This document shows, in pieces, positions 4,062 to 49,313 of a DNA stretch of 49,329 bases. This DNA comes from a virus. Location: the IMG/VR virus record IMGVR_UViG_3300045999_002286, positions 1 to 49,329 of that record, one strand, 5' to 3'. Every line of letters starts with the position of its first letter. Position 1 is the first letter of the stretch. A model generated the notes under the pieces. The model saw only the letters and a list, made by a program, of their open reading frames with translations. It had not been told where the DNA came from and did no database searches. The translations under genes and the position numbers were made by a program.

Positions 4062-4260
4062 CTAACTCCTGTTCGATGATTTCGTATTTGTAGAACTCAT
4101 CTCTTTCTATATCTCGATCTATGTACGCGTACCAATCAAGTAGGTCCTCAGCATACTCACGTTTTGTAAACGCACCTATCATAGTTGTGGTGATGTCATT
4201 CTCTTGCAGCAGCCAACCGGGGGGTCTGTGGTGTTCGTAAACAAGGTATACGTGTTTCAC
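4036..4260 (-). CDS. Small hypothetical protein
   Basis: A 74-aa product starting at GTG (4260), which overlaps the TGA of the preceding acidic-protein gene. Its 3' end overlaps the primase-helicase start by 26 nt. Residues 1-8 (MKHVYLVY) look like a beta strand, followed by an acidic helical stretch. No family recognised. Confidence 0.65.
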   Translation of the reverse strand: MKHVYLVYEHHRPPGWLLQENDITTTMIGAFTKREYAEDLLDWYAYIDRDIERDEFYKYEIIEQELDAHPPTLP

Positions 4261-4403
4261 AGGAAGTCTCCATCATCATCGTCGTCGTTCGCCTCCCAGA
4301 ATCCGCCGTCACCCTCATCTAGGTACTCGTCATCCTCGTCCTCATCATAGTCGCCGTAGATGTAGTCTTCGTCGTAGATGTCATAGTAGTCATCGTCATC
4401 CAT
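4257..4403 (-). CDS. Extremely acidic small protein, candidate DNA mimic
   Basis: A 48-aa product in which 26 residues are Asp or Glu, 7 are Tyr, and none is Lys, Arg or His. The ATG at 4403 overlaps the upstream stop, and its own TGA overlaps the next GTG, so it is embedded in a coupled string of genes. Such a surface could imitate DNA, as phage anti-restriction and nucleoid-targeting proteins do, but there is no sequence match to a known one that I recognise. The function is inferred from composition only. Confidence 0.65.
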   Translation of the reverse strand: MDDDDYYDIYDEDYIYGDYDEDEDDEYLDEGDGGFWEANDDDDDGDFL

Positions 4404-4593
4404 CTTCCTGTTCCTCCTCCACAACTAGGTCACTCGGATCATCCTCTATATAAGAGTATACACTATCCTCGTTCCAGTAGTCAAGTATTTTATCAACCTC
4501 CTCGAGACACACTCCACAAGGCAGGGTCTTCATGTCCCGATGGTCCAGTTGCATTTCGTCAATAGACGCACCACAGATGTAGCAGTTACCCAC
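4396..4593 (-). CDS. Small zinc-ribbon-like protein
   Basis: A 65-aa product with CYIC (4-7) and CGVC (26-29) plus nearby His and Asp residues, typical of a small zinc knuckle. The C-terminal half is highly acidic (ends VVEEEQEDG). It overlaps the ATP-grasp gene stop upstream and the acidic-protein start downstream. The role is unknown; zinc binding is predicted from the cysteine pairs only. Confidence 0.7.
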   Translation of the reverse strand: MGNCYICGASIDEMQLDHRDMKTLPCGVCLEEVDKILDYWNEDSVYSYIEDDPSDLVVEEEQEDG

Positions 4594-5344
4594 CGTTTAG
4601 TGCCTCCGCATAGGCCTCAATGGTGGACCCTGACAGACCCGGTGCTGTGTTTACCTCAAGGATGTACGCACGATCCGAGGGCTTGTGGTAGATTACGTCG
4701 ATGGCTCCGAAGTCCAGCATCGTGTTGTCGGCATAGTCTTGGCAAGCCTCGATAACTTGCTCCGGCATATCCTCAAAGGTGCTAAGGGCATAGACGAACC
4801 CACCAGCTAGGTTGCGTACCTTCCAGTTGACATCCTCGTTCGGCACATCCAGTTTACGCCCCTTACGGGCAAACTTGATAAGACTATCACCATAAAAGTG
4901 CACCCGATACTCATCGGTCTTCTTCTTGTACTTTGTGTACAGGGGTGCGTGGGGCATCAACATACCGGGTTCTACGATCTCGATACCTTCGCCTGAGTGG
5001 CCTCGAAGATTGTGGCGAGCAACCACAGTGAAGTCTTGGGCGGCCCAAAGAAGAGCATTATCAATATTAGTGGTGTGCTGTACTACGTAATCACGATTAC
5101 CCGGATAGGTCTGAAAGAAAGACTTCTTGTTGGATACAATGTCAACGTGCTCAGGGTTGTTGACGATTACCCCCTTCATCACCTCAGGGTTGTCGATCTC
5201 TGAACACCCCCAGTTGATAATCACATCGCCGGGCTTGTATTTATATCGGGAACCCTCACGCTTGATTCGTTTGGCCCCGATGGCCTCCGCCAGCTTTTTG
5301 GCAGACTCAGATGCTGAATTGTAAGGTAAGACAAAAGTACGCAT
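4586..5344 (-). CDS. ATP-grasp ligase (RimK/YheC-like)
   Basis: Predicted ATP-dependent carboxylate-amine ligase, 252 aa. The C-terminal ATP-grasp signature is clear: DFGAIDV (211-217) and ILEVNTAPGL (228-237), with the Glu and Asn that bind Mg-ATP. An upstream RHNLRGHSGEGI (110-121) resembles the glycine-rich nucleotide loop. Families of this type join an amino group to an acyl-phosphate. It is the last gene of a cluster with two amidoligases and two glutamine-amidotransferase-like proteins, so it probably works on the same substrate. GAAGGAGAG precedes the ATG. Confidence 0.85.
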   Translation of the reverse strand: MRTFVLPYNSASESAKKLAEAIGAKRIKREGSRYKYKPGDVIINWGCSEIDNPEVMKGVIVNNPEHVDIVSNKKSFFQTYPGNRDYVVQHTTNIDNALLWAAQDFTVVARHNLRGHSGEGIEIVEPGMLMPHAPLYTKYKKKTDEYRVHFYGDSLIKFARKGRKLDVPNEDVNWKVRNLAGGFVYALSTFEDMPEQVIEACQDYADNTMLDFGAIDVIYHKPSDRAYILEVNTAPGLSGSTIEAYAEALNGG

Positions 5345-5347
5345 AGA

Positions 5348-6265
5348 TTATAACTCTCCTTCATCGGCTTCATGTTCGGCTACATAGAACACGTATTCCA
5401 TTCGGTCGTCGTTGAACTTCTTTACTGGTTTGAACGCTGTGAGGTCAACCCCATAACACAGGTCTTGGGCAAGGCGCAAGGACTGCCACACAACAGGGAT
5501 GTTGAAGTCGATCCCTTGTGATGGTTTGCCAAAACACTCCTCGAACATCTCGGCCAACCCACGCATGGACAGCATAGGCAGGACATCCTTGGGGTCAGCC
5601 TCACAAGCGAGAACCCAATTACGTAGGGCTTCTACGTATGAGATGAACTCCACGATGTAGGCCGCATCAATGGACCCCCGCAAGTAGCGGAACTCCAACG
5701 AGCAGAACTTACCGATACTGGCCCAGTTAAGGCCCATGTAGCGGCGGTTGCCATCGATGTACTTGATTGTCTCCGGTTTGAACGACTCGATTACGTGGTC
5801 CACAAATACTGGGGCGTCCACGGCGCGAAGACAAAAGAGGTTACCAACCCGCTCTGGGGCAAACTTTTCCACGATGATGGGCTCGAACACGTACCACAAG
5901 GTGGAAAACAGCAACAGTTGACGTGGGGTAAACGTTTGTACATTCATGTGGACGTGAACGGAGCACCGATTGGACCACTTGATAGCATCAAGAAGGGTCG
6001 TGTCATCCAGTCCGGTCTCCTTGGCGGCCAGCATCTGGGTGGGTTGATCTAGTACCTCAGGTAGTGTCTTGTAGGACACGGGCCCACGCATGATGAGCTC
6101 GAAGCCGTTACGCAACGAGCCATCCTTGACCTGTTGCCAACTTGCAGAACCTATCTTGTAGTTGTCAGCCTCAGCAAGTTCACTGTCGAACTCAATCTCT
6201 AGCTCACAGGCATAGGTGCCGGGATATTCCTTACGCTTAACAATGTCATTAAGTTGCGGTTCCAT
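5348..6265 (-). CDS. Amidoligase (glutamine-synthetase-fold)
   Basis: Predicted ATP-dependent amide-bond ligase of the amidoligase family, 305 aa. Diagnostic pieces are ELEIEF (21-26, metal-binding acidic residues), DGSLRNGFEL (48-57), CSVHVHM (101-107) and LEFRYLRGS (190-198). Family members are proposed to form amide or isopeptide bonds in peptides, cell-wall material or proteins. It overlaps the preceding gene by 17 nt and is 3 nt from the ATP-grasp gene, so the proteins are made together. The substrate is not known. Confidence 0.85.
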   Translation of the reverse strand: MEPQLNDIVKRKEYPGTYACELEIEFDSELAEADNYKIGSASWQQVKDGSLRNGFELIMRGPVSYKTLPEVLDQPTQMLAAKETGLDDTTLLDAIKWSNRCSVHVHMNVQTFTPRQLLLFSTLWYVFEPIIVEKFAPERVGNLFCLRAVDAPVFVDHVIESFKPETIKYIDGNRRYMGLNWASIGKFCSLEFRYLRGSIDAAYIVEFISYVEALRNWVLACEADPKDVLPMLSMRGLAEMFEECFGKPSQGIDFNIPVVWQSLRLAQDLCYGVDLTAFKPVKKFNDDRMEYVFYVAEHEADEGEL

Positions 6266-6836
6266 TTACGGCCTCATCTAGTGCTTCTTGTAGGTACTTG
6301 TATTGGTCGTCCAAGACGGGTACATTATCTACAAACTTACCTACGACCTTTGTCTTATAGTTTAGGTCGTCCCGAATCTTGGCGAAGTAACGGGAGAACG
6401 CCCCAGATTTGCCCGCCTCAATGTATGTATTCAAAGCGGGATAGTCATTGAATACTGACTTGGCCAGACACTCGAAGAAGTATTCGTCAAAGGGCATTCT
6501 ACGTTGTGTAGTAAGAACAGGGTTGACGACTATATTGTCCGAGTTAATACCTTGCTTGTACTGGCGATGACCTGTACGAGAGGTAAAGAAAGGGCCCTTG
6601 GCCGTGTTAATGAACCCGAGCGGAAACCCTTGGAAGATAACCTCAGGATCATTGACGTCAACCTCTCGCATTTCACCTTTGAAGTTTTGAAGTGTGATCA
6701 AGAAATCATCAAAGCCAGCACCGTCACGTACTGACATGACACTGTAAAACTTGTTGCGATACAGTACGAAGCTATTAAACAGTCGGTCTCGGACAGATTC
6801 TTTACTGTCAAAGATCATGCGACTACTTGTGAACAT
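6249..6836 (-). CDS. Hypothetical protein of the amidoligase cluster
   Basis: A 195-aa product of unknown function. I start it at the ATG at 6836 because GGAGG lies 9 nt upstream. An upstream in-frame start at 6875 would run deeper into the preceding amidoligase gene. No membrane segment or metal-binding motif is visible. Its position between the two amidoligase genes, overlapping both, suggests a partner or substrate of the ligase system. Confidence 0.75.
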   Translation of the reverse strand: MFTSSRMIFDSKESVRDRLFNSFVLYRNKFYSVMSVRDGAGFDDFLITLQNFKGEMREVDVNDPEVIFQGFPLGFINTAKGPFFTSRTGHRQYKQGINSDNIVVNPVLTTQRRMPFDEYFFECLAKSVFNDYPALNTYIEAGKSGAFSRYFAKIRDDLNYKTKVVGKFVDNVPVLDDQYKYLQEALDEAVNGTAT

Positions 6837-7626
6837 AACGTGGAACCTCCAAGGCTGGTGGTGTTTGGTACTCATTGTTGTTGATGCACCGCTCAGCTAG
6901 GCCGGGAGATGCGTCGTCGTAGAAGATGTCACGCTCGAACAGGTCCGCCAACGCCTGCTGCGTGCTGTTAAAGACAAAGTCACACAGGTCCCGGTCAAGG
7001 ACCCACTTGTTGCTGAGGACGCGATACTCGACCCCGTAGGACTTCGGACGGAAAGCCCCCGCCTTCCCATAGAGCTCCCGACGGCGGTTGTCAGTGTCCC
7101 AAAGCAGGGAGTTGAGACCTAGGGCGTAGTCAAGCTGGATGCAAACCTCTCGGCACTTGTTGTAGTGCTGTGGACTGAACGCATCGGCCCCCTCGGTCCA
7201 CCCAATGTGGATGTGACCCGACCCAGTACGGAACATGACTCGGGCATCAGGGATGGGGTTGACCTCCCCAGTGTAGGCGTTGTAATCGGGATTGCACCCC
7301 AACTCGACCGCCTTCTCAGGCAACGACTTGAAGTAGGCCTCGTCGTAGGTGGCCACAGGTGTGGCGGTAAGCGTGTATCCCGGAAGCATACGACCCATAG
7401 AGTGGACAACGGCTCGGATATAGTCCCCGAACTCTTGCGCCGTGGACGCTGGGTCGATGTTGAACTCGGCTGCTGTGCCATCGACTTGGACAGCCCCGTA
7501 CGGGACCTTGAACGGTTCCTCTTTAGTGCCCGGCAACTTGTCGTGTACAGACACAAACGAACCGGAGTTAGGATTTACACAGAACAATTCGGGATCAGCC
7601 CCGATAAGGATATTCGCTTTCATCAC
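6823..7626 (-). CDS. COOH-NH2 ligase-type amidoligase
   Basis: A second, distinct glutamine-synthetase-fold ligase, 267 aa. Key blocks are GADPELF (9-15), VDGTAAEFN (48-56), RTGSGHIHIGW (133-143) and a basic/acidic block RRRELYG to VEYRVLSN (181-206). These match the phage and bacterial COOH-NH2 ligase group. It probably activates a carboxylate with ATP and couples it to an amine, with nitrogen perhaps supplied by the neighbouring amidotransferase. The start may be Met1 or Met2. Confidence 0.85.
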   Translation of the reverse strand: MMKANILIGADPELFCVNPNSGSFVSVHDKLPGTKEEPFKVPYGAVQVDGTAAEFNIDPASTAQEFGDYIRAVVHSMGRMLPGYTLTATPVATYDEAYFKSLPEKAVELGCNPDYNAYTGEVNPIPDARVMFRTGSGHIHIGWTEGADAFSPQHYNKCREVCIQLDYALGLNSLLWDTDNRRRELYGKAGAFRPKSYGVEYRVLSNKWVLDRDLCDFVFNSTQQALADLFERDIFYDDASPGLAERCINNNEYQTPPALEVPRYVHK

Positions 7627-7641: not shown

Positions 7642-8736
7642 TTAGCTTGCTTTTGAGCGCAAGGCCCAGTTGTCAGTACCTAGATTTTCAATTAACCACT
7701 CTTTCCAATTGTCTGGACTGTCATTCCAGCAATCACCACACACAAACATTGGGGCCGTAACCCCGTTATCGAAGAATATCTTAGCATCCTTCCCACTAGA
7801 GGAGAACTTGACAACTTCTATACCACACGACTGGCAGCAGGAACCGTGTGTGTCATAGGAATCATCGAGGTCGTCCCACTTAACCACCGACCCGTCATAG
7901 TAGGTAAACTTGGAGTCACCCCCACCGACGTCGTACCGCCAAGACTTACCACGGTACCTCGTCCAGTCTGTGTAGTCGTCGTTTGCGTTTGCCTTCCCGC
8001 CACCGAAAAAACTTTTCTTTGGCGCGTCCTCCACGTACGGCAACCAGAACCTCTGGTCAAGTTTTGGGATTTGAAGGGCCATGTGTTTGTCAATGGGTAG
8101 TTGCATTATGGAACCGGGGTCGATCTTGATACCGTTGCGAGCCAGAATCCACACCAGCATACCCAATTCGGATGCCCACCACAGATTCTTACCACCACCT
8201 GATGTGCACAAGTACAGGTCGCGCTCCTCGTTGCGAAGGAAGTTAATTGTTTCGTAGACCTCATCGTACCAGATAAGACACCAAGCCCCTGAGGCGATTT
8301 GTCCCATAGTTTCTCGTGCCCCGATCTCGGAGATAGACTTGAGCAGCGCCTTGGAGTCCATATCCTCCTTACCGCCGTACTCTAGTTTCTTCCAAGTGTA
8401 CTCAGGTACGGTGCCGTTGTGGGCTCCGATGATGTCCCCGTATGAGAACGGGTGAGCATTTTCTAGGTTAACCGCCCCTTGTGTAGCCCAACGATTGTGG
8501 CCAATCATGACTGATACATCGAGGGCTGTGGTAAACGCCTTGTCGAACTGCTTGAACTCTGTCAGTTCGTGGCCGTGGCCGAGGGAGTGAAACACTGAAC
8601 CAACCTCATCCCGTCGGGACTTGAAGTAGGCACCCGCTGAGTGGGGCCCACGTAGGGAGCCTACTTGTAGCAGTTGTTTGAACGCTTGCTTCTCGGGCCC
8701 ACTGAGGGACCCCGCCGCGCCTAGATGTCCGCACAT
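7642..8736 (-). CDS. Class II glutamine amidotransferase with zinc-binding tail
   Basis: Predicted N-terminal-nucleophile glutaminase, 364 aa. Cys2 is the nucleophile (MCGHLGA), with RGPHSAGA (29-36), GHNRWATQG (79-87), AHNGT (105-109) and an Asp near 127, as in the GlmS/PurF glutaminase domain. The long C-terminal part is not a known synthase domain. It ends with two Cys pairs (CCQSCG and CGDC) that could bind zinc. It would release ammonia from glutamine for a ligase of the cluster, by inference. It lies 15 nt upstream of the second amidoligase. Confidence 0.85.
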   Translation of the reverse strand: MCGHLGAAGSLSGPEKQAFKQLLQVGSLRGPHSAGAYFKSRRDEVGSVFHSLGHGHELTEFKQFDKAFTTALDVSVMIGHNRWATQGAVNLENAHPFSYGDIIGAHNGTVPEYTWKKLEYGGKEDMDSKALLKSISEIGARETMGQIASGAWCLIWYDEVYETINFLRNEERDLYLCTSGGGKNLWWASELGMLVWILARNGIKIDPGSIMQLPIDKHMALQIPKLDQRFWLPYVEDAPKKSFFGGGKANANDDYTDWTRYRGKSWRYDVGGGDSKFTYYDGSVVKWDDLDDSYDTHGSCCQSCGIEVVKFSSSGKDAKIFFDNGVTAPMFVCGDCWNDSPDNWKEWLIENLGTDNWALRSKAS

Positions 8737-8943: not shown

Positions 8944-9753
8944 TTATCGCTTCCGTTCTTTGATAAGGGTTACTAAGTCTTTAGGGGAGGACCCACCGAA
9001 GCGTCCCTCCGCTACTAACCCGAGAAGGGACTTGGGCGTATCTCCTGTACCCCACATCCTGTGGATACCCGTCTCCCACCCATCACGGGCAAACACCTTG
9101 TCACCCATGATCTGGGGGACACCCTCTAGGAAATTACCGAAGCCAATGCTTTCGGCTAGTGGTCCGTGGTGGGAGGTAAGGAACGAATAGCTATAGGTTT
9201 CCCCGACTAGCGACTCGGTCATCCACATGAAGTACAGTGCTTCGTCTTTGTCTACACCAGCATTGACTAACCGTACCCAGTTGTCCACCTTATCGGAGTT
9301 CTCCCACAGTGCCCGAATGAACGTATTGACACAAAAGAAGTGCTTGGATACGAAGTTCAGGTCGTTGTGAACGAAGACAAAGCCGGAGTGTTTATCCCCC
9401 TTTACTAGGGCCCAAGAGTCGGGCCGAGACATACCCCGCAACACCTTGCACTCGTCAGACATGATGTGCTCAAGATACGCTAGGTGTTCCCGCTTGTACT
9501 TCTGGTTGAACGGGGAGAACCAAAACATCCAGTCCCCCTCTTCGAACTTACTACGTGGCTTCTCACCCTTTTGGGTGGCCTCAAAGCGGGGGGAGAAACC
9601 TTGCATGAACGCCATACAGATACGGCCAATCTCGGCGTGGGTCTTGTGTGTCTCCAGATTATTGGGGACAAACACTACGGATGAAACCCCCGAAGGTCGG
9701 GGTAGTTGGGAGGTGGCCCCCCAGAACGTGGCAAAACCTAGTTTAGACAGCAC
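8944..9753 (-). CDS. Hypothetical protein of the amidoligase cluster
   Basis: A 269-aa soluble protein that I do not recognise. It has several aromatic-rich blocks (GDWMFWFSPFNQKY; EALYFMWMTES) and no signal peptide or membrane helix. The gene is 3 nt from the class I amidotransferase-like gene and 1 nt from the next small gene. Its fixed place between the two amidotransferase-type genes suggests that it belongs to the same pathway. Confidence 0.75.
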   Translation of the reverse strand: MLSKLGFATFWGATSQLPRPSGVSSVVFVPNNLETHKTHAEIGRICMAFMQGFSPRFEATQKGEKPRSKFEEGDWMFWFSPFNQKYKREHLAYLEHIMSDECKVLRGMSRPDSWALVKGDKHSGFVFVHNDLNFVSKHFFCVNTFIRALWENSDKVDNWVRLVNAGVDKDEALYFMWMTESLVGETYSYSFLTSHHGPLAESIGFGNFLEGVPQIMGDKVFARDGWETGIHRMWGTGDTPKSLLGLVAEGRFGGSSPKDLVTLIKERKR

Positions 9754-9756
9754 GGG

Positions 9757-10404
9757 CTAGCCCTTGATAACAAGTTGTGGAAAGAACTCAGTTACGAGTT
9801 CGACGAAATACTCTGTGCACTCAGGGTGGCCCGAGTACTCAGGGTGGGGTTGAAAGCACAGCGAGTTGGTGGTCTCATAGTACAACACCTCGATGTCTGT
9901 TGATCGGAACCGCTCCAACTCGTTGGCCGCTTGTCGGTAGGTTGATAGCGGGGCGGCGGCAACACCTATGATGGCCGCATCTGGGCTGGGCCGCATCATT
10001 TGGTGGTGGGTGGACGTGCAGAAGTATTCCCGCAGTGTCCGTGTGTCCTTGACTAGGTGGCTTCGGGTGTGTCCGTCTACGTCTTGCCACATACGGCCCC
10101 CACTCATGACGTTCAGGAACTGGGCCCCCCGACAGATGCCGATACGGGGCACATCAGGGAACTCCTTGAACAGGTAAATACAGTTGTCATCCCGCCGTCT
10201 GCTTGTCCCTGATGCTACGTTGTCTTCCCCGTACAGGTGGGGGCTTACGTCGGCACCACCTGTGAACACGATTACGTTGGCCTCGGTGGGGTCCTCAACG
10301 ACTTGCCACCCAAACTCACGTTCGAGCATACGCCCAACAAGCATGTCGTCGTCTTCTACAAATACCTTACAGGTCGCATCGACCGTTGGCGAAGCTATTA
10401 CCAT
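9757..10404 (-). CDS. Class I glutamine amidotransferase-like / gamma-glutamyl hydrolase
   Basis: A 215-aa alpha/beta hydrolase of the GATase1 superfamily (peptidase C26-like, similar to PuuD). The oxyanion region is FTGGADVSP (47-55), the nucleophile elbow is GICRGAQ (C91), and the His/Glu pair is in HPEY (H187, E189). Members cleave gamma-glutamyl amides or supply ammonia. As a stand-alone enzyme beside ligases it could trim or recycle a gamma-glutamyl-type product. The start overlaps the preceding stop. Confidence 0.85.
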   Translation of the reverse strand: MVIASPTVDATCKVFVEDDDMLVGRMLEREFGWQVVEDPTEANVIVFTGGADVSPHLYGEDNVASGTSRRRDDNCIYLFKEFPDVPRIGICRGAQFLNVMSGGRMWQDVDGHTRSHLVKDTRTLREYFCTSTHHQMMRPSPDAAIIGVAAAPLSTYRQAANELERFRSTDIEVLYYETTNSLCFQPHPEYSGHPECTEYFVELVTEFFPQLVIKG

Positions 10405-10601
10405 TTTTTGAAGTACTCCTCTTCCGCAGCCTTGGCGGCCTGTTTGTCGGGGTTACCTACCCACTTACGATAATTGGTCCGCCATTCTACCGCAGCTTCG
10501 CGGCGCACCTCGGGGTCCAGTCCTTGCAAAAGTTTCGCAAGTCTGGGGTATGTGCTGTCAGCAACGTACATCGCTGTTTGTAAAGATATATTCAAAGCCA
10601 T
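10398..10601 (-). CDS. Small hypothetical protein after the EDIWL array
   Basis: A 67-aa, helix-rich, charged product ending EEEYFKKW. It begins at an ATG inside the EDIWL codons of the upstream gene, with GGAGG as ribosome site. It is the first gene downstream of the array and lacks the EDIWL tail. Function unknown. Confidence 0.7.
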   Translation of the reverse strand: MALNISLQTAMYVADSTYPRLAKLLQGLDPEVRREAAVEWRTNYRKWVGNPDKQAAKAAEEEYFKKW

Positions 10602-10840
10602 ATATCCTCCGATTTGGTTGTAGCACCAACTCCTAAGCCTTGGTGGATAAGTGATGTCCTATCAGCCTCTGTGTACTTTTCCGCACCTCGGTACCTAGCC
10701 CACCAGTAAGGATCGCCTTCTTCAGATGTAATCCAGTCAAACGCTCTTAGTAAGTAGCCCCTACAATGTCTAGGTATAAAGTCACCTGTGGGTGTAAGTG
10801 AAATTAGGTTGTCAAAATCCTCCATATTACGAATTTTCAT
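10592..10840 (-). CDS. EDIWL-tailed small protein (array member 8)
   Basis: An 82-aa product. The middle block (AFDWITSEEGDPYWWARY) matches the repeat-family core A-xx-W-xxxx-E-G-xx-Y-W, and the C-terminus is SEDIWL. The ATG overlaps the upstream TGA (ATGA) and is preceded by GAGGAGGA from the upstream tail codons. Function unknown; it belongs to the expanded family described in the findings. Confidence 0.8.
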   Translation of the reverse strand: MKIRNMEDFDNLISLTPTGDFIPRHCRGYLLRAFDWITSEEGDPYWWARYRGAEKYTEADRTSLIHQGLGVGATTKSEDIWL

Positions 10841-11139
10841 AGCCAGATGTCCTCCTCAGGTTGTAGCAGGGTCTTGTAGTCACCTAAGTAAGCTTCAATC
10901 TTCTTATGATCTTCCTCACTCCAAGGTCGGATAGCACGGCCTTGTCCCATACCGTAGAAGGGCTTTGGGTTAAGATCGTACCAATACTCGTGGCCCTCAT
11001 TTGAACGTACAAAGTGCATACCAAAGTTAAGAAGCTCATATACATCTTCTGAAAGAAACTCACCCTCAACAAGACCAACTTCCAAAAGTGCTTGAAGGTT
11101 CGTAGCTTTAGTTACGCAGGGGTGTAAACCTAAAGCCAT
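10837..11139 (-). CDS. EDIWL-tailed small protein (array member 7)
   Basis: A 100-aa product, the longest in the array. It shares a HPCV...T.L..L start with member 6 and has the core MHFVRSNEGHEYWYDL. It ends QPEEDIWL. The ATG lies inside the upstream tail codons (ATATGGCTT), giving a 10-nt overlap, with GAGGA just upstream. Confidence 0.8.
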   Translation of the reverse strand: MALGLHPCVTKATNLQALLEVGLVEGEFLSEDVYELLNFGMHFVRSNEGHEYWYDLNPKPFYGMGQGRAIRPWSEEDHKKIEAYLGDYKTLLQPEEDIWL

Positions 11140-11387
11140 ATATCCTCCTCAGGTGGTGGTGAAATGAGGTTTGAATAAAATCGGATTCGTTCCGCAGCAT
11201 AGTTTGTCCAGTTCCTCTCCTCTCTGTAAAACTCCTTCCAGAAATTGTGACCCTCCTCTGAGGAGGACCATCGCATCCCACGATCTAAGGCTTGTTGACA
11301 TCTATGGGTCAGTACACCCCCCACTTGTGCATTAAGGACTAAATACTCAAGCTCAGTAGGTCTTTTGACGCAAGGGTGATACGTCAC
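11130..11387 (-). CDS. EDIWL-tailed small protein (array member 6)
   Basis: An 85-aa product. The GTG start overlaps the upstream TGA. The N-terminus has HPCVKRPTELEYL and the family core is ALDRGMRWSSSEEGHNFW. It ends PPEEDIWL. The ribosome site GAAGAGGAC comes from the upstream tail. Confidence 0.8.
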   Translation of the reverse strand: MTYHPCVKRPTELEYLVLNAQVGGVLTHRCQQALDRGMRWSSSEEGHNFWKEFYREERNWTNYAAERIRFYSNLISPPPEEDIWL

Positions 11388-11632
11388 AGCCAGATGTCCT
11401 CTTCAGGGGGTTGTTGTTCACCAAACTCACCGAGATATTTAAAGATAAAACCGTACACGTGAAGATCATCACCTTCCCACTCAAAGCTACGTGTAGTACC
11501 AATCCACACTAGACCTTTCTCAACAGATGTCATGGTGAGATATGTGGTCGGATTATTTTCAAACAATGAGAAGTCAGCCCTGTATAGGGTACGTCCTATA
11601 CTTCTTACAAGGCAGGATCGTATTATAGCCAT
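11384..11632 (-). CDS. EDIWL-tailed small protein (array member 5, divergent body)
   Basis: An 82-aa product whose body differs from the main family; only a loose GLVWIGTTRSFEW block recalls the core. It still ends PPEEDIWL. The ATG is inside the upstream tail codons (10-nt overlap). A conserved tail on a different body argues that the tail itself has a job. Confidence 0.75.
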   Translation of the reverse strand: MAIIRSCLVRSIGRTLYRADFSLFENNPTTYLTMTSVEKGLVWIGTTRSFEWEGDDLHVYGFIFKYLGEFGEQQPPEEDIWL

Positions 11633-11868
11633 ATGTCCTCCTCTTCGTTAAGCCCAAGTAACTCTCGCAAGAACTTAGTGTCCTTCTTGGCCCACTTCAT
11701 TTGGCCATAAGCTTTTTTACACCAGTAGTCGTAACCTTGAGGGGTAGTGGCCCACTCAAAACCCAGCTGTAGGTCCCAACCAAGACCCCACCTATAGATT
11801 CTAGAACCGGGTTCTGGGTCAAAGTTAACGATCCGTTGCAGCCTTGCTGCGTCAAGTATTTTTGTCAC
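11623..11868 (-). CDS. EDIWL-tailed small protein (array member 4)
   Basis: An 81-aa product starting at GTG, which overlaps the upstream TGA; a TTG two codons earlier is possible. The core is LGFEWATTPQGYDYWCKK and the end is NEEEDIWL. The tail uses ATA for Ile where other members use ATC or ATT, so the residues are kept while codons drift. Confidence 0.8.
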   Translation of the reverse strand: MTKILDAARLQRIVNFDPEPGSRIYRWGLGWDLQLGFEWATTPQGYDYWCKKAYGQMKWAKKDTKFLRELLGLNEEEDIWL

Positions 11869-12062
11869 AACCAAATGTCCTCCTCTGGCGGTTCAAGTGG
11901 GGGTGTCACTGCCCGATTAGATGTTGAAGTCCAGTCTATATGATTACCTACGATAATCATCCCAGGGTTAGCTTCGATCATCATCCCAGCGTGTGCATCA
12001 TGTACTACGAAATGATTGCCGAAAATATCTAAGTCTACAACTAACCGTCGTATCTCATCCAT
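11865..12062 (-). CDS. EDIWL-tailed small protein (array member 3, divergent body)
   Basis: A 65-aa product with an unrelated, beta-rich body (IIVGNHIDWTSTSNRA) and the same PPEEDIWL tail. Unlike its neighbours it follows a 34-nt gap after the upstream gene, with GAGAAG as a weak ribosome site. Its tail codons provide GAGGAGG for the next gene. Confidence 0.75.
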   Translation of the reverse strand: MDEIRRLVVDLDIFGNHFVVHDAHAGMMIEANPGMIIVGNHIDWTSTSNRAVTPPLEPPEEDIWL

Positions 12063-12096
12063 CTGGTCTTCTCGAAAAAGGGGTTTTCCCGGTATA

Positions 12097-12588
12097 TCAA
12101 CAAAACTCCGGTCTGGGGCGACCTGTCCACTTGTGCAAGTCGCGTTTGCCTAACTTATAGTAGTTGCGGTAACTAAGCACTACAGAATCCCACGTGTGAC
12201 CCTTGCCAACCATGTACTCAAGGTCCATTGCAGGCTTCGGCACAGTTAGCCCAAGGTCTGAGATGGCCCGTGGTGGCTCACAAAGCACGTCTACAAGCCC
12301 GTCATAGGATTTGTGATGTCTACCACCGAACCGATAAGAAAACTCGCCAGCGAGGCCGTGGAAGTGGTTTACGAGCCATTGGTAGTTGATGACTGATTTC
12401 GCGGTCCACACAGCAGACGGGTGGTGTTGGTGTGTTGGCTTGTACATGAACTTGGCCGTGGGGCTATTGTGTACGTGGTGTGCCGTGCTGAGTAACTGGG
12501 CCGTCTCAAGAATCATCTTGGACACGTGGCTGTCAACCATGTACTCGGCACACTTAACGGGGTCGTAGTCAAGAAAGAAAATGTTCAC
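12097..12588 (-). CDS. Conserved phage protein, possible pyrimidine-dimer glycosylase-like fold
   Basis: A 163-aa product starting at GTG (overlapping the upstream EDIWL stop). MNIFFLDYDPVKCAEYMVDS followed by HVSKMILETAQLLS, then a His-rich stretch (KPTHQHHPSAVW), is a pattern I recall from phage proteins annotated in the pyrimidine dimer DNA glycosylase group. The catalytic residues cannot be confirmed by eye, so a DNA repair role is tentative. It interrupts the EDIWL array but uses the same junction type. Confidence 0.55.
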   Translation of the reverse strand: MNIFFLDYDPVKCAEYMVDSHVSKMILETAQLLSTAHHVHNSPTAKFMYKPTHQHHPSAVWTAKSVINYQWLVNHFHGLAGEFSYRFGGRHHKSYDGLVDVLCEPPRAISDLGLTVPKPAMDLEYMVGKGHTWDSVVLSYRNYYKLGKRDLHKWTGRPRPEFC

Positions 12589-12845
12589 AGCCAGATGTCC
12601 TCTTCGGGTTCAGCAGCCCCATCATTGAGTCCGACGATCACGTCCCTTACCTCCTGTGTAAGAAGAGACCCGTAGTACAGGTCCAGCATGATACTTCTGC
12701 GCAGACCATAGGCCATCTCAACCTTAGCCCAGTCTAGGGCCCTGTTAAGTAGAGTTCTTTGGTGATGTCCTAGCTCTAGCCCCACCTCAAGGCCTGAGTC
12801 AACCAGCTTGCTTAGAGCATTAGGGTTTAGTATAAAGTCGTTCAC
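12585..12845 (-). CDS. EDIWL-tailed small protein (array member 2)
   Basis: An 86-aa product starting at GTG (12845), which overlaps the upstream TGA; a longer frame to 12899 would run into the upstream gene. It is clearly paralogous to member 1 (LVDSG...HHQ..LL.RA..W..VE..Y shared). It ends EPEEDIWL. Confidence 0.8.
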   Translation of the reverse strand: MNDFILNPNALSKLVDSGLEVGLELGHHQRTLLNRALDWAKVEMAYGLRRSIMLDLYYGSLLTQEVRDVIVGLNDGAAEPEEDIWL

Positions 12846-13105
12846 AGCCAGATGTCCTCCCCTCCCTCCGTTACAGGGGCCGAGCCGTTGAGCTCCCAAA
12901 GGATTTCAAGCACCTCCATAGTCATCGGCGTGGTCCGGTCGTGTATATCCGCCAGAAGCCCCGGCCATAAACGGGGATAGTTCTCCTCCACAACGGACCA
13001 GATAATAGCTCGATCTAGGAGGTACGCCTGATGGTCGGTGAGGTACGCCCCCTCTACGGGTCCCGAGTCAACGAGCTCAGTCAACCTATCTGCGTCGTAG
13101 ATCAT
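12842..13105 (-). CDS. EDIWL-tailed small protein (array member 1)
   Basis: An 87-aa product and first member of the array in transcription order. It has a strong AAGGAGG ribosome site before the ATG. The core is LLDRAIIWSVVEENY and the tail is GGEDIWL. The body resembles member 2 closely enough to indicate tandem duplication. Confidence 0.8.
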   Translation of the reverse strand: MIYDADRLTELVDSGPVEGAYLTDHQAYLLDRAIIWSVVEENYPRLWPGLLADIHDRTTPMTMEVLEILWELNGSAPVTEGGEDIWL

Positions 13106-47540: not shown

Positions 47541-47783
47541 TTAGTTCACCGTTGGGTCCAGCACATCCAGTGCCTCGCGGGCTACCTCAACCACCTTGTC
47601 AATGGGGCTAATGTACGTCAGGTTGGAGTCTTCGTCCGTGATGCCCACGAAGGTGCCCGTCACGATCAGGTACCCATAGTGCATGGCCCCCTCGGGGTTG
47701 CTCAAGGTCCTTACGCGATAGAACCCCATTGGGGGGCCCTTAGGTTCTTCAGGTTTAGCGGGGAATCCAATAATTTTACTCAA
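47541..47783 (-). CDS. Small hypothetical protein
   Basis: An 80-aa product starting at TTG, which overlaps the upstream EEDNWL stop. GAAGAGGAC from the tail codons serves as ribosome site. The N-terminus is Pro-rich, followed by a beta-rich segment (YGYLIVTGTFVGITD). Unknown function. Confidence 0.65.
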   Translation of the reverse strand: MSKIIGFPAKPEEPKGPPMGFYRVRTLSNPEGAMHYGYLIVTGTFVGITDEDSNLTYISPIDKVVEVAREALDVLDPTVN

Positions 47784-47992
47784 AGCCAGTTGTCCTCTTC
47801 TACGTCGTCAATACCTACAAACTCATCTAGGCCGCTGTATACGACCCTATAAAATCCGTCTGGGTTCTCTACTTGCAATTGTCGTACAGCTTCATCTGCT
47901 GATTCTTCATCGACGTAAACCCCCTCGGGCCACGCCTCCTGTACGTCCATTACAATCCAAGCCTCGCCCTTATCCTTAAATCCGTTGAGCAA
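47780..47992 (-). CDS. EEDNWL-tailed small protein
   Basis: A 70-aa acidic product. Its end, VEEDNWL, nearly matches the EDIWL tail of the array at 10.6-13.1 kb, 34 kb away in this numbering (about 15 kb across the join). The body is unrelated. The junction to the next gene has the same overlap design. Confidence 0.7.
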   Translation of the reverse strand: MLNGFKDKGEAWIVMDVQEAWPEGVYVDEESADEAVRQLQVENPDGFYRVVYSGLDEFVGIDDVEEDNWL

Positions 47993-48848: not shown

Positions 48849-49313
48849 TTACGCCCACTCATCGTCAAATTTGAAGTCTTCACGTCCCCCGCCTTCGTAT
48901 GGCACATGGTCCTTCACACGAATAGCTAGGATGTTACGCTTGATACCCTTCTTACCCTTGTACTCATATTCCTTGAGCAGGTATTTGACATCAACTACTG
49001 ATTCGTTCCCGATGGCTACCGAGGGGTCCCAAGGTTTGCCACCTGCGTCAACGACCTCAATAGGCTTAGCGGGTTTGCCCTCAGGGGCATCTGGTGTAGG
49101 CTTGTTCATTGTGGCCTTACGGAATTGATAGAAGTCACCACGAGCATCACCCTTGTTCTTGGGCTTGGCTTTGACGCCTTCCTTTTCCATCTCGGCTAGG
49201 GTGTCACCATCAACGGCTAGGTCGAAGCTCCACTCCATACCGTCACCCTCATAGTTCTTCGAACCTTCACCGAACACTTTACAGTAGTACATCTTTCCAC
49301 TACGAATTGGCAT
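48849..49313 (-). CDS. ssDNA-binding protein, T7 gp2.5-like
   Basis: A 154-aa protein that coats single-stranded DNA and recruits replication enzymes. A predicted OB-fold body precedes the acidic C-terminal tail ending DFKFDDEWA, the typical interaction tail. Driven by the perfect promoter that lies at 168-196 across the contig join, with AAGGAA before the ATG. Its TAA is in the same frame as the downstream exonuclease coding sequence. Confidence 0.85.
   Translation of the reverse strand: MPIRSGKMYYCKVFGEGSKNYEGDGMEWSFDLAVDGDTLAEMEKEGVKAKPKNKGDARGDFYQFRKATMNKPTPDAPEGKPAKPIEVVDAGGKPWDPSVAIGNESVVDVKYLLKEYEYKGKKGIKRNILAIRVKDHVPYEGGGREDFKFDDEWA

Follow-up and report, generated by a model that had tools for sequence, protein, structure and literature searches.

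A shared C-terminal tail on small proteins of one phage genome

Why do small, otherwise different phage proteins encoded by overlapping genes end in the same few residues, and is it the DNA or the protein that holds those residues constant? The question was raised by an array of genes on the minus strand of the viral IMG/VR record IMGVR_UViG_3300045999_002286, which was analysed over its whole length of 49,329 bases and is called the window here. Zobellviridae podoviruses are among its nearest annotated relatives. Eight small open reading frames (ORFs) between 10592 and 13105 carry the C-terminus EDIWL, and a ninth at 47780-47992 ends in EEDNWL. We judge the chances to be about even that this tail is a lineage-specific C-terminal short linear motif read by one common partner, which we infer to belong to the amidoligase module encoded beside the array. 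Selection on the protein would keep the tail, in a form specific to each phage lineage, and that partner would use it to recognise a group of small early proteins with little else in common. The genes of the array and the ninth gene are listed below.

12842-13105, minus: tail gene, 87 amino acids (aa), ending ..GGEDIWL; 4-nt stop overlap with the GTG start of the next gene
12585-12845, minus: tail gene, ending ..PEEDIWL; GTG start at 12845; paralogue of 12842-13105; longest ORF reaches 12899
12097-12588, minus: tail-less gene within the array; phrog_624 "DNA binding protein"; weak Pyr_excise (pyrimidine-dimer glycosylase) match
11865-12062, minus: tail gene, 65 aa, unrelated body, ending ..PEEDIWL
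11623-11874, minus: tail gene, 83 aa, core W..TPQG.DYW, ending ..EEEDIWL; TTG start, 10-nt overlap; phrog_16354 (E 7e-6)
11384-11632, minus: tail gene, 82 aa, unrelated body, ending ..PEEDIWL
11130-11387, minus: tail gene, 85 aa, core W..SEEG.NFW, ending ..PEEDIWL
10837-11139, minus: tail gene, 100 aa, core SNEG.EYW, ending ..PEEDIWL
10592-10840, minus: tail gene, 82 aa, core W..SEEG.PYW, ending ..SEDIWL; last gene of the array
47780-47992, minus: ninth tail gene, 70 aa, ending ..EEDNWL; co-directional with the operon on the permuted map

An earlier sequence-only reading of the window had described these nine tail genes, and its coordinates and tails were all correct apart from one start. The ORF given as 12585-12899 almost certainly begins at the GTG at 12845, which makes a 4-nt GTGA overlap, and not at the TTG at 12899. 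Its division of the eight array genes into six with related bodies and two (11384 and 11865) with different bodies and the same tail was borne out by body comparison. Four of the six (10592, 10837, 11130 and 11623) are clearly related, 12585 and 12842 form a strongly similar pair (z 14) with weak similarity to those four, and 11384 and 11865 show no relation to the six. Most of the tails are preceded by a Pro-rich stretch. The ninth gene had been placed 34 kb away, which is right by numbering only. The genes for the polymerase (207-1985) and a single-stranded DNA-binding (SSB)-like protein (48849-49313) lie at opposite ends of the window and are contiguous in the close relative L004 (L-numbers label the contigs compared). 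The window contig is therefore circularly permuted, and on the permuted map the ninth tail gene lies about 12 kb downstream of the array in the same direction.

The tail is conserved as a peptide

Among 25 small minus-strand genes there were 28 pairs of similar C-terminal hexamers, as compared to a mean of 0.43 and a maximum of 2 when internal hexamers were drawn at random from the same proteins. Successive genes overlap at their ends, so the bases that encode the tail also carry the Shine-Dalgarno (SD) site of the next gene and sometimes its start codon. The next gene's SD site was found inside all nine tails, as had been claimed, and the stop overlaps the next start in two geometries, at -4 (ATGA/GTGA/TTGA) and at -10 (ATGGCT inside ATATGGCT). 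The Glu at -5 is encoded by GAG in 9/9 tails, as the SD site requires. The Ile codon tracks the start geometry (ATA or ATT at the 10-nt overlap, ATC at the 4-nt overlap), and in the 10-nt geometry the NTG-GCT start shares bases with the W codon. Because both geometries share the same tail, one peptide is kept under two DNA requirements. The SD overlap fixes the Glu codon, not the peptide.

Codon use in the window tails was diverse, with two different codons for Asp, three for Ile and four for Leu. The synonymous difference per site (pS) was 0.76, near saturation, and the nonsynonymous difference (pN) was 0.03 (pN/pS 0.037); the low pN is partly built in, as the genes were picked by shared residues, and the informative part is the number of genes together with the near-saturated synonymous sites. 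Tail pN/pS was 0.20-0.31 in four relatives. The T7-like contigs L216, L222 and L204, with recurrent KDE or DE C-termini that come from the ATGAGTAA start of the next gene, served as a control for tails that are truly DNA-driven. Codon sharing was 100% in the KDE tails of L216, 38% in the window and 24% in L400. The sequence-only reading had argued that the ribosome-binding site could account for the acidic pair but not for DIWL and that the tail is a short motif at the protein level, and both claims are supported by the near-saturated synonymous sites, by the single peptide in two geometries and by residue conservation beyond the SD bases.

The tail persists away from ribosome-binding sites and occurs only on small proteins

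In relatives, the tail is retained where a separate SD site for the next gene follows the stop, or where there is no SD site or no close gene. Such tails were found in L038 (7869, SLINE; 14029; 14270), L076 (10007, 10216, 10907), L129 (8224, VANE), L070 (5624, NLSDYV), L373 (12177; 15205, NLADHM), L383 (1743, 9053) and L501 (2575, 4510). Where the SD site is not needed, the Glu that encodes it often changes to I, A or S while L..N/D stay, as in SLINE of Citrobacter phage CVT22, VANE of L129, NLSDYV of L070 and NLADHM of L373. In CW02, L383 and L501, GAA replaces the GAG of this Glu under the same circumstances. Tails also persist ahead of gaps of at least 30 nt (L038 4744, 14270). Two patterns that would suit a DNA origin were looked for, conservation confined to the SD bases and loss of the tail when no gene follows, and neither was seen.

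Tail presence was limited by gene size. Among SD-in-coding overlaps, the tail was present on 60/83 small genes and on 0/32 large ones (>150 aa; p 7e-14); the tail patterns were derived from the same genomes, which makes the 60/83 figure generous and does not explain the zero among large genes. As none of the 32 large genes carries the tail, coupling through an SD site inside the coding sequence does not need it.

Other lineages carry other tails, on exchangeable bodies

About a dozen podovirus contigs have their own shared tail on 4-18 small proteins. In Citrobacter phage CVT22, 18 genes for small proteins that end in LENE or a close variant alternate with amidoligase genes, and the tail of Salinivibrio phage CW02 is P-x-[LI]-L-E-E-N-x. 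Further tails are xENE (L129), [MWL]ENK (L114 and L057), LENE (L501), LED[YWF]x including the form LED[WY][LM] (L070, L373 and L383), VERLV (L082), EVLYEI (L074) and LEELMEEYL followed by 2-4 further residues (L050). The L400 tail, L..WL, uses the same 10-nt overlap geometry as the window. Tail genes also occur outside the amidoligase module, around the primase and polymerase genes (L129 12123-16711; L038 16569-17292) and, in the window, at 47780. The open-access papers searched held no previous description of such tails, which is not proof of absence.

In a tree of the phiEco32-type COOH-NH2 ligase, tail bearers were spread over several distinct groups: a clade with LENE-type tails (4/4 sampled members tailed), a clade with LED[WY]-type tails (all tailed), the group of the window and single contigs. 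The tree was built quickly and many of its forks are weak, and the tail label on it includes some doubtful clusters; we therefore speak of several origins without giving a number.

Bodies and tails form separate modules. Across genomes, at least six different tails occur on small proteins that begin with KxGDxV, namely LENE (CVT22), LEEN-x (CW02), xENE (L129), LEDYM or LEDWL (the LED clade), VERLV (L082), EVLYEI (L074) and LMEEYL (L050), and in tail-negative relatives their C-terminal ends are unrelated. Conversely, the body core of the window proteins, W..[TS]xEG..[YF]W, is present without the tail in Pseudomonas phage GP100 (L037), L062, L113 and L130. In GP100, three tandem paralogues at 4489-5392 with the core W..xPEG..[YF]W have no shared tail. 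A profile of the KxGDxV bodies was too divergent and found only its own seeds, and essentially no body homologues were found in annotated phages. Identical residues on non-homologous bodies, combined with synonymous variation in their codons, are what is expected of a short linear motif.

Tail clusters are linked to an amidoligase module

The array runs directly into a seven-gene operon, which is followed by genes for a primase-helicase and DNA polymerase A. The sequence-only reading had mentioned neither this operon nor the same arrangement with other tails in several lineages. All seven genes are on the minus strand.

9757-10404, minus: class-I amidotransferase / gamma-glutamyl hydrolase-like protein (Peptidase_C26; Pfam E 4e-15)
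8944-9753, minus: unnamed 269-aa family P269, without Pfam or PHROG match
7642-8736, minus: class-II glutamine amidotransferase (GATase_6 E 1.6e-13; phrog_4736)
6823-7626, minus: phiEco32-type COOH-NH2 ligase (Pfam PF14395; phrog_3815 E 3e-82)
6249-6875, minus: unnamed 208-aa family P208, predicted tandem small barrels; weak SH3/Tudor/EF-P-like matches
5348-6265, minus: Amidoligase_2 (Pfam E 5e-9)
4586-5344, minus: RimK/LysX-like ATP-grasp ligase (phrog_2599 E 2e-72; RimK by profile E 2e-6; ArgX-LysW best fold match)

The window thus holds together the Amidoligase_2, COOH-NH2 ligase, class-II amidotransferase, C26/class-I amidotransferase and ATP-grasp genes of a phage amidoligase module. Such modules were reportedly described by Iyer et al. 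in 2009; the enzymes are the same as those in the window, whereas shared-tail small proteins are not mentioned in the open-access papers searched. The fold of P208 was considered as a clue to function and set aside, its small-barrel matches being weak (E above 0.01).

Since the loci had initially been collected by way of module genes, which biases the sample, three controls were used, with a cluster defined as four or more tail genes. Primase and ribonucleotide reductase neighbours without the module gave a cluster in 1/89 distinct contigs (L222, largely start-codon-driven). Contigs fetched by the tail DNA pattern alone had clusters in 4/5 module-positive as compared to 0/108 module-negative cases (p 8e-7). 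With all sets pooled, clusters were present in 11/137 module-positive and 1/197 module-negative contigs (p 3e-4). Within the module, tail genes had the ATP-grasp gene as neighbour in 4/9 cases, no clear preference over other module genes.

A ligase operon adjoins small proteins with one conserved C-terminus, so the most economical reading is that the tail is a handle for the ligases. By analogy with known ligases, the partner would lie within the module, among the RimK/LysX-like ATP-grasp enzyme, the two glutamine synthetase (GS)-like amidoligases and the amidotransferases. The handle would let these ligases recognise the tail proteins as substrates, carriers or target-finding adaptors.

Comparison with known C-terminal handles

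The ArgX/RimK/graspetide ligase families act on C-terminal handles or precursor peptides. The model of the window ATP-grasp protein (predicted local distance difference test score, pLDDT, 94.5) matched best to ArgX bound to LysW, then to RimK, D-Ala ligases and graspetide ligases. The fold match to 3vpb had E 5e-11 and a template modelling (TM) score of 0.74, and the D..E.N metal site (D216, E230, N232) is invariant.

RimK extends the C-terminus of ribosomal protein S6. The phage enzyme resembles it in its annotation (phrog_2599) and profile match, and differs in that the candidate substrates are many phage proteins, whose modification would follow by analogy. The GS-like ligase PafA uses the C-terminal residue of Pup. 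GS-like COOH-NH2 ligases beside small proteins with a conserved C-terminus recall that pair, and ligation could be proposed on this likeness; unlike Pup, the tails vary by lineage, and family searches gave no Pup-like match. In poxvirus ankyrin-PRANC proteins, too, diverse bodies share a C-terminal docking element. That element, the PRANC domain, docks to the host SCF ligase, whereas the phage tails are 4-8 residues long.

Another close parallel is LysW/ArgW with LysX/ArgX, where a small protein has a conserved acidic C-terminal tail as the handle of an ATP-grasp ligase, the role proposed here. LysX/ArgX recognises the C-terminal EDWGE of the carrier (PMC10433800), and the LEDW[LM] tails of clade-A phages resemble EDW. 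The phage tail proteins differ from LysW (PMC10433800) in having no zinc ribbon and many bodies instead of one, and the window tail does not end in Glu. Paired CxxC motifs are absent from the window tail proteins; CVT22 and L129 tails end in Glu without EDWGE. The window ATP-grasp enzyme lacks the tail-recognising GSWGR motif of LysX and has GHSGEG at that position, in its Gly-rich loop.

A CxxC..CxxC protein at 4396-4593 (minus) was considered as a LysW-like zinc-ribbon carrier and rejected, as such proteins are equally common without the module (38/126 as compared to 53/187). The window protein has an acidic end, overlaps the ATP-grasp stop and carries no shared tail. Proteins of the form MRCxICD occur near the primase gene with and without the module, and none was found in ten tail-bearing relatives.

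Alternative explanations

Several results weigh against a handle read by a partner in the module. About 90% of module-positive contigs lack a tail cluster, which shows that the module can do without the tail. A presence/absence comparison found no gene family specific to tail-bearing genomes, which led us to reject a hub gene unique to them, and no partner protein was identified. The Gly-rich loop, GHSGxG, hardly varies between the window and clade-B enzymes though their tails differ, and the phage proteins fail the membership features of both LysW and LysX. The terminal residue varies in CW02 and L070, and in L050 LMEEYL is followed by 2-4 more residues, which means that these genomes do not depend on a fixed terminal carboxylate residue. 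Every window tail contains an SD site, and the SD-free test rests on the relatives. A serious rival, though we think it rather unlikely, is docking to a partner outside the module, either a host protein or one of the phage's own, such as its polymerase, helicase or sigma-like factor, with the linkage to the module reflecting early-region geography. The tail genes near primase and polymerase (L129, L038) and at 47780, together with the loop that does not covary with the tail, fit this explanation. A conserved host partner should yield similar tails, yet the tails differ by lineage, and clusters with variable codons occur only in module-bearing contigs, including those fetched by DNA pattern.

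The other explanations place selection elsewhere. A nascent-peptide effect, in which the C-terminal residues delay termination, promote re-initiation at the next, overlapping start and are selected in cis, is a lesser rival and improbable: among small genes the tail is indeed tied to overlapping junctions (60/83 as compared to 30/116, p 9e-11), but large genes with the same SD-in-coding overlap never use it, and it is kept before the longer gaps and before genes with their own SD site. That the tail is an artefact of the DNA, a translated SD site and start context multiplied by duplication, is very unlikely. The invariant GAG in the SD column, the W codon over the NTG-GCT start and the start-driven KDE tails of the T7-like contigs are what it would produce; it is already contradicted by saturated synonymous variation, one peptide in two geometries, SD-free retention and the tail-less large genes. 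Equally improbable is mimicry of the SSB C-tail, by which EEDIWL would recruit or block SSB-binding proteins. The likeness, which the sequence-only reading had drawn, is to an acidic-aromatic short docking motif on a putatively flexible linker (Pro-rich here, by sequence); EEDIWL resembles DDDIPF, and the window SSB-like protein ends in FDDEWA. It did not extend to the relatives, where each array tail differs from the lineage's own SSB tail: the SSB-like protein of L129 ends in EDEDAPW and its tail is xENE, and that of CW02 ends in DFDDDLPW as compared to LLEENx (LLEENV). The sequence-only reading had also proposed that the array proteins may act against the host or its defences.

Returning to a ligase handle, a stronger version is possible and proposed only tentatively, namely that a protein-tagging or carrier system arose several times independently, with a lineage-specific handle, dual-coded with the ribosome-binding site, that the amidoligase/RimK-like module would read in order to charge or modify the small proteins or be recruited by them. 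Tiny orphan early genes number in the thousands across phage genomes and are beyond the reach of homology annotation; a common lineage-specific tail places dozens of them in a single functional class and hints at a shared partner. The amidoligase/ATP-grasp/amidotransferase module is widespread, and the tail proteins would be its first concrete candidate substrates or adaptors; they occur in the growable isolates CVT22 and CW02. The tail also illustrates clearly how selection on a protein and on a ribosome-binding site can act on the same few bases.

Neighbouring genes

A gamma-glutamylcyclotransferase-like gene, recognised by eye from its V-Y-G-T-L-K start, lies amid tail genes in L076 (7141-7521), L070 (6425-6823), L373 (1588-1977), L383 (820-1212) and L400 (4825-5214), and was not seen in the window. 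Such neighbours suggest that the module may perform gamma-glutamyl chemistry. Near the ATP-grasp gene, at 4257-4424 (minus), is a 55-aa protein made nearly entirely of Asp, Glu and Tyr (..DDDDDGDFL) that is conserved in L334 and L004 and could be a DNA mimic.

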